DNA from: Gammaproteobacteria bacterium Ga0074134
GTDB taxonomy: Bacteria; Pseudomonadota; Gammaproteobacteria; Ga0077554; Ga007554
Direction of reading: 5' to 3'
Assembly: GCA_001464965.1 (NCBI GenBank)
Contig: LNEJ01000039.1
Coordinates: forward strand, 1-40,439
DNA length: 40,439 nucleotides
How positions within the stretch are numbered: position 1 is the stretch's first letter; each line of letters starts with the position of its first letter. The notes beneath the pieces are model-generated. The model saw only the letters and a list, made by a program, of their open reading frames with translations. It made no database searches and was not told the DNA's origin. A program made the translations under genes and the position numbers. Shown here one piece after another: positions 1,030 through 33,951 of the stretch.

Positions 1030-4000
1030 TTAACCTGTTGCAACCATTTTAACCGCTTCTTCAACATCAACCGCGACCAGGCGCGATACGCCGGGTTCGT
1101 GCATGGTGACGCCTATCAGTTGATTGGCCATTTCCATGGTGGCCTTGTTATGGCTGATATAAATAAATTGCACGCGTTCGGACATTTCCTTCACTAGCTT
1201 GCAGAAACGCCCGACGTTGGCCTCATCGAGTGGCGCATCCACCTCGTCGAGCATACAAAACGGTGCGGGATTCAGCTCAAAGATAGCGAACACCAATGCC
1301 ACCGCAACGAGCGCTTTTTCACCGCCGGATAGAAGATGAATAGTGCTGTTGCGCTTGCCGGGAGGACGCGCCATCACCGTGACCCCGGTATCCAGCAAAT
1401 CTTCCCCGGTCAGTTCAAGATAGGCTTCGCCACCACCAAACAGGCGCGGGAACATGGTTTGCAGGCCAGAGTTGACCTTGTCAAAGGTCTCCTTGAAGCG
1501 GTCGCGGGTTTCGCGGTCGATCTTGCGTATCGCGTTTTCAAGCGTGGTGAGCGCCTCGCTCAGATCGGCATGTTGGGCGTCGAGGTAGGCTTTGCGTTCC
1601 GACTCCTGGGCAAATTCTTCGATCGCCGCCAGATTAATCGCCCCGAGCCGGCTGATCTGTTGAGCCATGCGCTCCACTTGTTCTTGCCAGCCGGCTTCCG
1701 CAGCGCCCTCCGGCATTTCGGCAAGCAACGCCTCCATGGAAAAACCGGATTCACCGATCTGTTCCTGCAGGGTCTCGCGCCGCACCTTGACCTCCTGCCA
1801 GGCCATGCGCAGCTTGTCGAGATCGCTTTGTCCCTGGCGAATCTTTTGTTCAGTCACATTGCGCTGCTCATGCAACTGGCGCACGGCATGATCGCATTCT
1901 TCCACACGGCGGCGCGCCTGCGCCAGTTCCGACTCCACGGCAAGGCGCCGGGCCAGCATCTGTTCAAGTTCGGCAGCCAGGTCTTCCAGAGGCTGGCCGC
2001 CCTCCTCCATTGCCGTGCTCAACTCCTCGCGGCGGAGGGTCAGCTGATGAAGCTGTTCCTGCATGCGGCGCAGCCTTTCCTGGGTGGATGTGATCTGCGC
2101 GCGCACCGTTTGAATGCGCAGCGCAATGCCATGCGCCGCATCGCGGTCAGCACGGGCCTGTGTGCGAATCTGCTCCAGCTGGCGGCGATGCTCGTCACGG
2201 CTGCGTACCAGTGCGTCGCGGCGCTGGGCATGAGCTTCGGCTGCGGCCAATGCATCATGCAATAGCGTGCGCACTTCCTCCATTTCCTTTTCGCCGCCCT
2301 GTTTTTGGGCGAGAATATCCTCCAGCTCGATACGCAGGCGGTTGTTGCGCGCGTGCATCTGCTCCAGCCGCGCCTGCTTGCCGCTCAGTTGCGCCTGCGT
2401 CTCGGCGCGGCGCTGACTGGCGGCGCTCAACGCGGCCTGGCTCTGCTCGCGCGCCGTCTCGAACGACTTTAGATGGACGGCGCTGTCATGCTGCATCTGC
2501 TCGATCTCGCCGATACGCGCGGCCAGCTCCTCCATCTGCGCCGACAGGTTTTTGATCTCCTGTTCGCGAGCCAGCACCCCGGCTTTCTCATCGACGTCAC
2601 GCACCACGCGCAGCCAGTTGGCGCCCAGCCAGACCCCTTCGCGGGTAATCACTGATTCATGCGGCGCAAGATGTGAACGCAGCGCCAATGCCTGGACCAT
2701 GTCATCCGCGGCATAGACGCCCGCCAATAACGCATCCAGCCGCCACGGCGATTGCACCTTGCCAAGTAACGGCGCCGCCAGCGAGCCATGATTCACGGGT
2801 GCCTGGGCCAGCACATCAAACGCCCCCAGACTGCCGCGCTGAAGCGTATCCAGCATGGCGGCAACGCTATCCATGCCTTCCACGCAAACCGATTCCAAAT
2901 GGAGGCCCAGCACATGCTCCACCGCGCGCTGCCATTCCGGTTCAACGGTCAAGCCCTGCGCCAGGCGTTGCTTATCCCCCAGGCCGTGCTGTTTGAGCCA
3001 GGAGGTTACCGCGCCTGCGCCCTTGCCCAAGGCCTGCTGCTGAAGCGCTTCCAGCGAGCTGTGGCGTCCTTTCATGCCCTGTAAACGGCCGCGCTCGGTG
3101 TTCAGTTCGCTGGCAAGACGGTTGTGATCGTCACGCTCCGTGGCAATGCGCGCCTGATGGCTTTGCACCTCCTGCTGCAACCGCTCAACGCGCTCATCGA
3201 GCTCCTCGCGCTGCTCGCTGAGCGCGGCGATTTCCTCTTCCAGCGCCGTGGTTGACAGCCCGCCCCGCTCTTCCTCAAGGCGCACCAGGCGTTGTTCAAG
3301 TTGCCGCTGCTGCTGTTCCAGGTGCTGGATACGCGCGCGCTCCACTTCGGCGGCGCGCACCTGGGCGCTGGCCTGGACGTTGAACTCATCCCATTCTTGC
3401 TGCCAGGCATGTTGCGCGACTTCCGCCTCGGTCAGTGCGGCAGCGGAGATGCCTTCGGATTCCTTGGCTTGTGCAAGAGACAGCTCGTCATCCTGAAGTG
3501 AGTATGTAAGTTCTTCAATGAGTTGTTGATCATTGTTAAGGTGATTTTGCGCCTCGCTCCACGACTGTTCGGTGCGGCCCAGCTCACGCTGTTGCTGCTG
3601 ACGTGTCTCTTTGGCATGGTGCAAGGCCTGCTCCAGGCGCGCAATGTCCGCGCCCACGCTATAAAACTGTGCTTGAATCTGGCTAAAGGCCTCGCTTTGA
3701 TCAACGTGCTGCTCCCGCTGCTGTTCAAGCGCCGCCTCAATCCGTCGCAATTCGGCAAGCTGCGCCTCCAGGGCTGTTTCCTGGGCCTGAATGCGCCGCT
3801 CCTGCTCGTGCAGATCAACATCGAGCACCCGCCAGCGCAACGCCAGCAATTGGGCCTTGAGCAGGCGTTCCTGCTGTTTCAACTCCTTGTACTTTTCGGC
3901 TACATTCGCCTGCCGTTGCAGGGTTTGAAGCCGTTTCTCAAGTTCATCCCTTATGTCATTTATTCTGCTCAAATTTTCTTGGGCATGGCGCATCCGTGTT

Positions 4001-29927: not shown

Positions 29928-30386
29928 TCACCCTGCTTTCTTAGCCCCGCGAATCAACAAAATTGGTATTGGCACGATACGTACCACGCCTTCCGCCACG
30001 CTGCCAAAAATCAGGTGATCAAAACCACGCCGGCCATGGGTACCCATGACGATGACATCGGCGGGCCAGCTTTCGGCCTCTTCCACGATCACTCTGGCAG
30101 TCCGTGCACCATCGGCTTCAAGCAGTTTTGTTTGAGATGTTATCCCGGCCTGCTGGGCCAGTGTTTCAGCCTTGCCCAATATGTTCTTGCCTGCCTCACG
30201 CAAGGCCGCCTGGAGGCTGGTGATATCAAAATACCCTTCGCCGTACCAAAAAACGCGCGCCTCCTCTACGACGTGGACAAAGCGTAGCTGCGTTTGCTGC
30301 TGATCCTGCGCTATTTTGATCGCCTCTTGCACGGCAAGATCCGATGTGCCGCTGCCATCGACAGGAATCAGAATACGGTGGTACAT
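29928..30386 (-). CDS. Universal stress protein, UspA family
   Basis: The 152-residue single-domain Usp begins MYHRILIPVDGSGTSDLAVQ. It ends with the ATP-binding signature VMGTHGRRGFDHLIFGSVAE followed by VVRIVPIPILLIRG. This matches the G-X2-G-X9-G-S pattern of nucleotide-binding Usp proteins. An ideal AAGGAG precedes the start. It lies 110 bp downstream of the PEBP-like gene on the same strand, so it may be co-transcribed with it or have its own promoter. Confidence 0.93.
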   Translation of the reverse strand: MYHRILIPVDGSGTSDLAVQEAIKIAQDQQQTQLRFVHVVEEARVFWYGEGYFDITSLQAALREAGKNILGKAETLAQQAGITSQTKLLEADGARTARVIVEEAESWPADVIVMGTHGRRGFDHLIFGSVAEGVVRIVPIPILLIRGAKKAG

Positions 30387-30496: not shown

Positions 30497-30967
30497 TTAT
30501 CTGCCCCTCTGATACGTTCCCACCAATTCCGCCTTGGCAAGAATACGCCCTTGCATCGCCCTTTCCAGGGCCAACTTGCCTGGATTTCCCAAGGCCGGAA
30601 GAATCACGTCCAATGCATAAAGCTTGTGAAAATAGCGGTGGCGGCCAATAGGTGGGCAGGGGCCACCGTATCTGGTGCGCTTCCAGTCATTGATACCCTG
30701 CAGTGTCCCGGCGGGCAATTCTTTAGGGGAAACCCCTTCAACAAGCCCAGTAACGGCGGGCGGAATGTTATACAGAATCCAGTGCACCCAGGTCATTTTT
30801 GGCGCGGCTGGATCCGGGGCATCGGGATCATCCACTATCAGTACCAGGCTTTGCGTTCCGATGGGAATGCCGGACCAGGCAAGGGGTGGTGAGACATCAT
30901 TGCCATCGCAAGTATATAGCCGCGGGATAGCGCCATTGTGACTGAATGCGGTTGATGTGATTACCAT
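30497..30967 (-). CDS. YbhB/YbcL (PEBP, Raf kinase inhibitor-like) protein
   Basis: The 156-residue product is a bacterial phosphatidylethanolamine-binding-protein homologue. PRLYTCDGNDVSPPLAWSGI, SLVLIVDDPDAPDPAAPKMT and WVHWILYNIPPAVTG form the conserved anion-binding pocket, and the middle motif GGPCPPIGRHRYFHKLYALD is also present. Function in bacteria is not established. It follows the FBPA/P gene by 20 bp and is probably in its operon. Confidence 0.93.
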   Translation of the reverse strand: MVITSTAFSHNGAIPRLYTCDGNDVSPPLAWSGIPIGTQSLVLIVDDPDAPDPAAPKMTWVHWILYNIPPAVTGLVEGVSPKELPAGTLQGINDWKRTRYGGPCPPIGRHRYFHKLYALDVILPALGNPGKLALERAMQGRILAKAELVGTYQRGR

Positions 30968-30987: not shown

Positions 30988-32091
30988 TCAATCACCACGC
31001 ACCGTAAAACGCGTATCCAACACCTTGAGTTTTTCCATGATGCCGGTGTATTCCAGCTCGGACATCGGCAGCATGGCCGCACCGAAGAAACCTTGGCGGC
31101 GCATCTCTTGCGCCTTATCGGCGACGCGGTCGCGCACCGTGTTCCAGAAGGGATGGGCGAACGCATCCCATGCCTCAGTCAGCTTGCCGTTGTGCTCCGC
31201 AAAGGCCGCGCAGCTCACCAATGGCGGGCCGTCGAAATAACTGGTGCCGGTATTGAGTGCGACGGGCATCAGCGGCATTTGGTGCGAACCGCGCATGCAG
31301 CCGGCGACGAAATGGCCGATGGAATACGGAGCCAGCACTTCGCCGGTGGCAGGGAAATTCATTTGCACGCGCACCAGCATCACCGGATCGTCCTTGCCGG
31401 TGTATTTTCCGGCAATGTTGTGCAGGCGCGAAGTCGCCACTGCCACAGCCTGTTCACCGCTAGCGCGAGACCAGACGGACTCCACGACGTAACGCTCGGC
31501 ATCACGTAACAAAGCGGCGATATCGTAGAGTTCCTCGGGAGCATTCAGCTCTATGACGCGGTCGCCTTCGGTGTTGTTGACATCCATGATCACGAACCGG
31601 AAACCCTTGGACATATTAGGCGAGAGGATCAGGCCCGGTGTGTTCATGACATCGGCGAACGCCAGGTATAGTGGCAGATTAAAGGCGCCGGGATCGGTTT
31701 TGTCAGCGGCGAAAAACAGAAAAGGCTCATTGGGCCGTTCGTCGATCTCCATCTCTGCAACCGCCGGACCCATGCCTTTGACATTCCCCGAAAACGCATC
31801 CTTCAGCAGATCTTGTCCCGCGCCGTAAAGACCCTGTTCCTTGGCAACCCCCGTGCCGGTGATGAAGGCATCCCAAGCCAGCTTGTGGATTTGCTCATTC
31901 CCTGTGCCATGGGTATGCGTCATCAGTATGGCAATGTCATCGCCAGTGTGGCTGACATAATTATCGATTATCAGGCCCCTCCCGTGTTCCCGCACATAAG
32001 CCCGCACGGTTTCAAGCAAACGCTGTGACGGGGCGATGTGCCCGCCGATGGAGCCGATATCCGCCTTGATGACGCTGAGGGTAATTTTCAT
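30988..32091 (-). CDS. Fructose-1,6-bisphosphate aldolase/phosphatase (archaeal type, class V FBPase)
   Basis: This bifunctional gluconeogenic enzyme condenses triose phosphates and dephosphorylates fructose-1,6-bisphosphate to fructose-6-phosphate. The 367-residue protein starts MKITLSVIKADIGSIGGHIA and carries the family metal-binding and active-site segments. These include VSHTGDDIAILMTHTHG, DAFSGNVKGMGPAVAEMEID, ADKTDPGAFNLPLYLAFADV and RYVVESVWSRASGEQAVAVA. It is typical of archaea and deep-branching thermophiles, with scattered cases in chemolithotrophs. AAGGAC precedes the start. A perfect FNR-type box lies upstream at the activating distance. Confidence 0.92.
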   Translation of the reverse strand: MKITLSVIKADIGSIGGHIAPSQRLLETVRAYVREHGRGLIIDNYVSHTGDDIAILMTHTHGTGNEQIHKLAWDAFITGTGVAKEQGLYGAGQDLLKDAFSGNVKGMGPAVAEMEIDERPNEPFLFFAADKTDPGAFNLPLYLAFADVMNTPGLILSPNMSKGFRFVIMDVNNTEGDRVIELNAPEELYDIAALLRDAERYVVESVWSRASGEQAVAVATSRLHNIAGKYTGKDDPVMLVRVQMNFPATGEVLAPYSIGHFVAGCMRGSHQMPLMPVALNTGTSYFDGPPLVSCAAFAEHNGKLTEAWDAFAHPFWNTVRDRVADKAQEMRRQGFFGAAMLPMSELEYTGIMEKLKVLDTRFTVRGD

Positions 32092-32126
32092 GGCCGTGTC
32101 CTTTTTAGAAGCAATCCGATGAACCT

Positions 32127-32132
32127 ATTATT
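32127..32132 (-). promoter_or_regulatory. -10 element of the FBPA/P promoter
   Basis: On the minus strand AATAAT is a good -10 hexamer. It predicts a start near 32120, 29 nt before the FBPA/P ATG. From that start the FNR-type box is centred at -41.5, replacing a -35 element. Confidence 0.55.
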
Positions 32133-32154
32133 ACTGCTTCGCCATGCGCTTTCT

Positions 32155-32168
32155 TTGATATAGATCAA
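32155..32168. promoter_or_regulatory. FNR/ANR-type operator
   Basis: TTGAT-ATAG-ATCAA matches the FNR consensus TTGAT-N4-ATCAA perfectly and is symmetric. It lies in the 135-bp divergent gap between the FBPA/P gene (minus) and polX (plus). Its centre (32161.5) is 41.5 bp upstream of the predicted FBPA/P start, the classical class II activator position. It could also affect polX. Confidence 0.75.
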
Positions 32169-32226
32169 AAGCCACGCAGATTTATTGTGTTATGTTTTTT
32201 TAAACCACGCAAAAAACACCCCAGCC

Positions 32227-33951
32227 ATGCCCATTCACAACGCCGATGTTGCCGCGATTTTCGAGGAGATCGCCAATTTATTGGAGATTCAGGGAGCCAA
32301 TCCCTTCCGCATCCGCGCCTACCGCAATGCTGCCCGCACGGTGGGCGAGCTGGGGCGCGACATCAAGACGCTGCTGGAAAAAGGAGAAGATTTAACGCAA
32401 CTTCCAGGAATTGGCGATGATCTTGCGACCAAGATCCATGAAATTGTCGAAACGGGAAAATGCTCCATGCTCGACAAACTGCACAAGGAGCTGCCACCCG
32501 CAATCACCGGACTGTTGAAAATTTCAGGGCTTGGCCCCAAGCGGGTCAAGGCGCTCTATCACGACCTGGACGTACAAACCCTGGAGCAGCTCTATCGCGC
32601 CGCACATGATGGACGCATCCGACAACTGGCGGGTTTTGGCGCAAAGACCGAACAGCGCATCCTTGAGTCGGTGAAGGCACACGTGACAGAAGCACGACGC
32701 TTTAAGCTGGCCGTTGCAAGCCAGTACGCCGATGCGCTGGCGGCCTACCTGAAAAAGGTCAAAGGTGTCGGACAGGTGGTGGTGGCGGGCAGTTTCAGGC
32801 GTATGAAGGAGACCGTGGGAGATCTGGATATCCTGGTCACCGCTGGCCCCGGCAGCCCCGTCATGGAGCGATTTGCCGCCTACGATGAAGTAAAAACAGT
32901 GCTCTCCAGCGGCGGCACCCGCAGCAGCGTCGTGCTGCGCAGCGGACTCCAGGTGGATCTCCGCCGGGTAAATGAGGAAAGTTACGGCGCCGCATTGCAG
33001 TATTTCACCGGCTCCAAGGCGCACAACATCGCCATCCGCCGCCTGGGGCAGGAGCGAGGCCTGAAAATCAACGAATACGGGGTATTCAAGGGCGAGGAGC
33101 GCATCACCGGGGAAACCGAGGAGGCGGTATACCGGGCGGTTGGGTTACCGTATATCCCGCCGGAGCTGCGTGAAGACCGCGGCGAGATCGAGGCCGCGCG
33201 TGCCGGACGTCTGCCGCATCTGGTTGAGTTACACGATCTGAAAGGCGACTTGCATGCCCATACCAAGGCTACCGATGGTCACAACACAATCAAGGAAATG
33301 GCGCTGGCGGCCAAATCACGGGGGCTTGAATACCTTGCCATTACAGAGCACTCGCGCCGCCTGACCGTGGCGCACGGCCTCGATCCGCAACGATTACTGA
33401 AACAGATCGACGAAATTGACCGCCTGAATTCCGAATTGAAAGGCGTCACGGTACTGAAAGGCATCGAGGTAGACATCCTGGAAGACGGCAGCCTGGATCT
33501 TCCGGATTCAGTGCTGGAGCGGCTGGACCTGGTGGTCGGCGCGGTACACAGCAAATTCGATCTACCCCGCGCCAAACAGACCGAACGCATCCTGCGCGCC
33601 ATGGATCATCCCCACTTCACCTTGCTGGCCCATCCAACGGGGCGGTTGCTCGAACAGCGCGAACCCTATGATGTGGACATGTTGCGCATCATCCGCAAGG
33701 CCAAGAGCCGGGGTTGTTATCTGGAACTGAATGCCCACCCGGAGCGGCTTGACCTGCTGGACACCCAGTGCCAGATGGCCAAGGAGGAAGGGGTGCTGGT
33801 CAGCATCAACTCCGACGCCCACAACACGCTGGATCTGGACAACCTGCGCTTTGGTGTGGGGCAGGCGCGGCGCGGCTGGCTGGAGAAAAAAGACGTACTG
33901 AACACGCGCACGCTTACAGCGTTGCGGGCGCTGCTCAAGCGGACGATGTGA
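32227..33951 (+). CDS. polX: DNA polymerase/3'-5' exonuclease PolX
   Basis: PolX is a family-X repair polymerase fused to a PHP nuclease. The 574-residue protein has N-terminal helix-hairpin-helix units (EDLTQLPGIGDDLATKIHEI, LKISGLGPKRVKALYHDLDV). The nucleotidyl-transferase site is VAGSFRRMKETVGDLDILVT. The C-terminal PHP domain has LKGDLHAHTKATDGHNTIKE, YLAITEHSRRL, HPHFTLLAHPTGRLL and VSINSDAHNTLDLDNLRFGV. I chose ATG 32227 (MPIHNADVAAIFEEI), the family start; an upstream TTG would add 14 residues. The ribosome site is weak. Confidence 0.96.
   Translation: MPIHNADVAAIFEEIANLLEIQGANPFRIRAYRNAARTVGELGRDIKTLLEKGEDLTQLPGIGDDLATKIHEIVETGKCSMLDKLHKELPPAITGLLKISGLGPKRVKALYHDLDVQTLEQLYRAAHDGRIRQLAGFGAKTEQRILESVKAHVTEARRFKLAVASQYADALAAYLKKVKGVGQVVVAGSFRRMKETVGDLDILVTAGPGSPVMERFAAYDEVKTVLSSGGTRSSVVLRSGLQVDLRRVNEESYGAALQYFTGSKAHNIAIRRLGQERGLKINEYGVFKGEERITGETEEAVYRAVGLPYIPPELREDRGEIEAARAGRLPHLVELHDLKGDLHAHTKATDGHNTIKEMALAAKSRGLEYLAITEHSRRLTVAHGLDPQRLLKQIDEIDRLNSELKGVTVLKGIEVDILEDGSLDLPDSVLERLDLVVGAVHSKFDLPRAKQTERILRAMDHPHFTLLAHPTGRLLEQREPYDVDMLRIIRKAKSRGCYLELNAHPERLDLLDTQCQMAKEEGVLVSINSDAHNTLDLDNLRFGVGQARRGWLEKKDVLNTRTLTALRALLKRTM

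Follow-up and report, generated by a model that had tools for sequence, protein, structure and literature searches.

The 135 bp between the divergent genes for an archaeal-type fructose-1,6-bisphosphate aldolase/phosphatase (FBPA/P) and the DNA polymerase PolX probably harbour a symmetric bidirectional class II promoter, at which FNR would induce FBPA/P (with a PEBP gene and perhaps a Usp gene) on one side and PolX on the other when oxygen is low. This reading is based on one box, the spacing of -10 elements on both of its sides, conservation, the presence of FNR and the association of such boxes with FBPA/P elsewhere.

The FBPA/P gene occupies positions 30988-32091 on the minus strand of the window, i.e. 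of the whole 40,439-nucleotide stretch that was analysed. Its product scores 538 bits with Pfam FBPase_3, passes the NCBIfam equivalog model NF041126 (562 bits, cut-off 520) and matches solved archaeal homologues with E about 1e-101. Since a class I FBPase and RuBisCO are also encoded in the genome (L163, L164), FBPA/P is its second FBPase. The divergent gene (32227-33951, plus strand, with the ATG at 32227) encodes a DNA polymerase/3'-5' exonuclease PolX with a PHP domain, identified by NCBIfam NF006375 (567 bits, cut-off 426) and by the Pfam domains HHH_8, thumb, palm and PHP. Behind FBPA/P, likewise on the minus strand, are located a YbhB/YbcL (PEBP) family protein (30497-30967; PF01161, TIGR00481), separated from it by 20 nt, and a universal stress protein, Usp (29928-30386; PF00582), after a gap of 110 nt. 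The preliminary description considered both genes to be probably co-induced with FBPA/P. For the PEBP gene this remains plausible because of the short gap, and the gene is probably co-transcribed with FBPA/P; it lies behind FBPA/P in the genome studied here (G000) and in G003 and G007. For Usp the proposal is weaker, given the longer gap and the lack of the PEBP gene in this row in G001 and G002. The Usp gene follows in G000-G003, in G001 and G002 at a distance, and may be transcribed by read-through of polymerase starting at the FBPA/P promoter. A separate FNR box for Usp was considered and ruled out, as the window scan gave no match with up to two mismatches.

The FNR/ANR operator TTGATATAGATCAA at 32155-32168, not assigned to either strand and common to both predicted promoters, has no mismatch to the motif, as had been claimed, and no other site in the 40 kb window matches perfectly. 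Matches with up to two mismatches are at chance level there (18 found, 14.5 expected), so the perfection of the box and its position carry the weight. Across the 2.9 Mb genome 18 perfect boxes were found, vs none for the reversed motif used as a control, and the corresponding numbers in four relatives are 15-31 per genome and none. Boxes in the genome precede two Hsp20 genes, a cytochrome c gene followed by a phosphorylase-type gene, and genes for a glycine-zipper protein and a Host_attach family protein. The ANR/DNR regulons of Pseudomonas and other Proteobacteria use an identical box, and their targets include Usp, Hsp20 and cytochrome c types, which are held in common with the present set. 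In the intergenic perfect boxes of G000 the four middle bases are biased to nTAG or CTAn, as for example in TTGATCTAGATCAA and TTGATATAGATCAA; the FNR site used in this genome may accordingly be longer than the textbook motif. Another perfect box, in L010 (1501-1514), has -10-like hexamers 22 nt away on both sides, with Hsp20 on one side and a 2-hydroxyacid dehydrogenase on the other, and is a second candidate for a two-way FNR promoter.

On the minus strand, the -10 element AATAAT of FBPA/P (32132-32127; five of six matches to TATAAT) lies 22 nt from the box, and the predicted start is 7 nt beyond it, at about 32120. With the box centre at 32161.5, this agrees with the earlier claim that a start near 32120 places the box at -41.5. 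On the plus strand, an extended -10 element TGT-TATGTT (32188-32196) is also found 22 nt from the box, and the PolX start that it predicts, at about 32203, likewise centres the box at -41.5. The original reading of the box as a class II FNR site for FBPA/P is well supported, but the same box would also serve PolX through the mirror extended -10, which had been overlooked. Predicted -10 elements are therefore present at activating distance on both strands, as in a bidirectional promoter, and on each of them the class II geometry (centre at about -41.5, -10 element 22 nt off) is predicted. The two -10 elements are 58 bp apart. A promoter scan with a TTGACA-type -35 picked up neither promoter, as expected for promoters lacking a -35. 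Among E. coli FNR-activated promoters with a known start, the site is at -41.5 ± 4 in 19 of 23; contact with polymerase from -41.5 defines class II activators, and the majority of FNR-activated promoters in E. coli belong to this class (PMC3688515). A palindromic site allows such contact in either direction.

The spacing was tested on the 12 perfect boxes of the genome that are intergenic or at gene starts, with all gaps of 5-59 nt to either side included. A hexamer was taken as -10-like if it had A at position 2, T at position 6 and at least four of six matches. Nine such hexamers are located at gap 22, or seven if this locus is excluded, vs a mean of 0.58 at the other gaps. At 16 loci of relatives, which include the FBPA/P-PolX region of G007 on both sides, eight are at gap 22 and four at the next highest gap. 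Chance origin of the TTGATATAGATCAA box is excluded by this pile-up of -10 elements at 22 nt, by the 18 boxes found vs none for the reversed motif, and by the canonical FNR encoded in the genome.

Comparison of eight genomes of the family (and order) revealed FBPA/P and PolX in five, always adjacent and divergent, and neither gene in the remaining three. All 14 positions of the box are invariant in the five genomes holding the pair, vs 50 of the 121 other intergenic columns, so that conservation in relatives, suggested at the outset as a check of the box, is borne out. Within the genus alone 88 of these 121 columns are invariant, and the conservation argument consequently rests mostly on G007, in which the promoter core is kept although the FBPA/P leader has gained 95 nt and the PolX leader has lost 23 nt. 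Apart from the box, the best conserved element is TGTTATnTT of PolX, positioned at gap 22 in all five genomes. This bears on the alternative that the box activates FBPA/P only and that the plus-strand -10 is due to chance or unrelated to FNR. Such an arrangement would be in line with the five-of-six -10 of FBPA/P at gap 22 and with FBPA/P boxes that lack an adjacent PolX in other lineages. However, it leaves the constant spacing of the plus-strand element without a role, and the expected frequency of a -10-like hexamer at any one gap and strand is just about 2-3% (0.58 of 22 flanks); we consider it unlikely.

The -10 of FBPA/P lies at gap 22 as AATAAT, AACAAT (twice) or AATGAT, and G001 has TAAAAT at gap 21; the elements at gap 22 are GTAATAAT, which is that of the window, GTAACAAT (twice) and GTAATGAT. 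This predicted element is less conserved than the -10 of PolX, and drifts yet stays recognisable. Together with a distant PolX described below, the difference in conservation speaks for a box that activates PolX only, with FBPA/P constitutive or driven by something else. Against this are the recognisable -10 of FBPA/P and FNR-type FBPA/P promoters at loci where PolX sits elsewhere, which make activation of PolX alone quite improbable. In G007 the predicted PolX start (L033) is one base before the ATG. Leaderless translation would be needed there, and if the start prediction holds, a leaderless PolX message is suggested for this genome, which counts against the two-way model.

FBPA/P promoters were surveyed in other lineages by combining 80 loci of a genome scan with loci from the class, giving a non-redundant set of 83 upstream regions, each up to 200 nt in length. 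Eight of the 83 carry a box with no more than one mismatch, compared with 0.6 in shuffled regions (maximum 4 in 200) and a mean of 0.5 for permuted half-sites. Two of the eight are from the window's own family, and the other six are still above expectation. At these six loci PolX was not found next to FBPA/P. A hexamer with A at position 2 and T at position 6 is located at gap 22 in seven of the eight regions and at gap 21 in the eighth (L034). In two Betaproteobacteria, L038 and L041, the elements at gap 22 are GTAATCAT and GTAATTAT, nearly identical to GTAATAAT of the window. Their translations indicate that the divergent neighbour of FBPA/P is a glycogen phosphorylase-like gene in L038 and an Hsp70-like gene in L041. 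Putative FNR-type control of FBPA/P is in this way supported independently of PolX, in a minority of lineages. Upstream of FBPA/P in L038, a further FNR-like box in tandem (TTGCGTTAAATCAA, two mismatches) is present at about 3765-3815 with TATGTT 22 nt away, a combination that resembles the PolX-side element of the window.

A box general to FBPA/P was rejected, since 75 of the 83 upstream regions lack one at up to one mismatch. Old FNR control of PolX was mostly rejected as well: among 27 more remote PolX loci, L143 alone has a box and, 22 nt from it, a good -10; the PolX there, of 68% identity, is preceded by TTGACGCGTATCAA with TATAGT at this gap. With the box missing from the majority of FBPA/P homologues and, outside the family, from the majority of PolX homologues, the control would be lineage-specific.

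As a candidate reader of the box, L016 was identified as FNR, with 250.6 bits against the cut-off of 228 of the Fnr subfamily model. Aligned to solved FNR, it has the C-x2-C-x5-C cysteines, the fourth ligand cysteine (VCEIP) and the ETISRLL recognition helix, and the genome thus encodes an FNR with its Fe-S cysteines. Low-oxygen induction would be the probable consequence of control by this FNR. A CRP (L018) was ruled out as a reader of the box, because its ExxGR helix fits TGTGA rather than TTGAT. A second Crp/Fnr-family protein, in L017 (1477-2157, minus strand), has by sequence reading an ExxSR recognition helix but lacks the Fe-S cysteine cluster, and may compete for, or read, FNR boxes. 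The box might therefore be read by another regulator of this family, either the L017 protein, in view of its helix, or a DNR-like NO sensor, as DNR motifs resemble TTGATnnnnATCAA (PMC1274295), and the cue would then be NO or another signal instead of oxygen. However, a canonical FNR is present, and perfect boxes with class II spacing before Hsp20 genes, cytochrome c and others fit a general FNR/ANR regulon, so that another regulator is a poor candidate.

In the mechanism that we propose, an FNR dimer in its reduced, [4Fe-4S]-loaded form would bind the palindrome at 32155-32168. Both predicted starts (32120 on the minus and 32203 on the plus strand) are 41.5 bp from the box centre, so the activating regions of one dimer could reach RNA polymerase in either direction, and neither promoter would require a -35. 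A polymerase on either side would occupy the box region, and only one direction could therefore be served at any moment. Because two polymerases cannot share the region simultaneously, alternation is expected, and both transcripts would use the one activator in turn. FBPA/P (with PEBP, perhaps Usp) and PolX would then rise jointly as oxygen falls.

In synthetic bidirectional promoters of E. coli, an activator favouring one direction represses the other (PMC12825309), and co-induction is for this reason not guaranteed at the present locus. FNR might by polymerase competition repress one gene while activating the other, as is general for bidirectional promoters under one-way activation (PMC12825309). 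In contrast, the activator is symmetric for both directions here and both -10 elements are kept, and we hold opposite regulation of the two genes to be hardly probable. In the passages of that study considered here, no activator is centred for both directions (PMC12825309). These promoters are comparable to the present one in that divergent transcripts contend for one stretch of DNA; as far as they are described there, they differ in that their symmetry comes from the -10 itself and their activators act one way, whereas symmetry of the two separate -10 elements here would come from a central activator site.

The class II FNR promoters of E. coli (narG, dmsA, nirB, nrfA) are alike in a TTGATnnnnATCAA-type site at -41.5 with the -10 located 22 nt downstream (PMC3688515). 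Each of them is listed for one operon, whereas here one box is at the predicted -41.5 for the two divergent genes. In the literature searched, which included few subscription journals, no direct account was found of FBPA/P or PolX being controlled by FNR, or of a single FNR site acting in both directions. The mechanism itself is ordinary and well known; the gene pair appears to be new within this literature, and the exact two-way symmetry appears uncommon.

The full proposition is that a mirror-symmetric class II promoter, at which one FNR dimer alternates between divergent polymerases, ties an enzyme of gluconeogenesis to a repair polymerase when oxygen is low, and that selection has maintained this promoter in a single gammaproteobacterial family; we regard the chances for and against it as evenly balanced. 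If true, an archaeal-type FBPA/P, carried beside class I FBPase and RuBisCO, would be placed under oxygen control. This suggests a role of FBPA/P as the low-oxygen FBPase, in agreement with the boxes before FBPA/P in other Proteobacteria. PolX would likewise be tied to low oxygen, and the locus would offer a natural, exactly symmetric test case of one class II activator shared between two polymerases.
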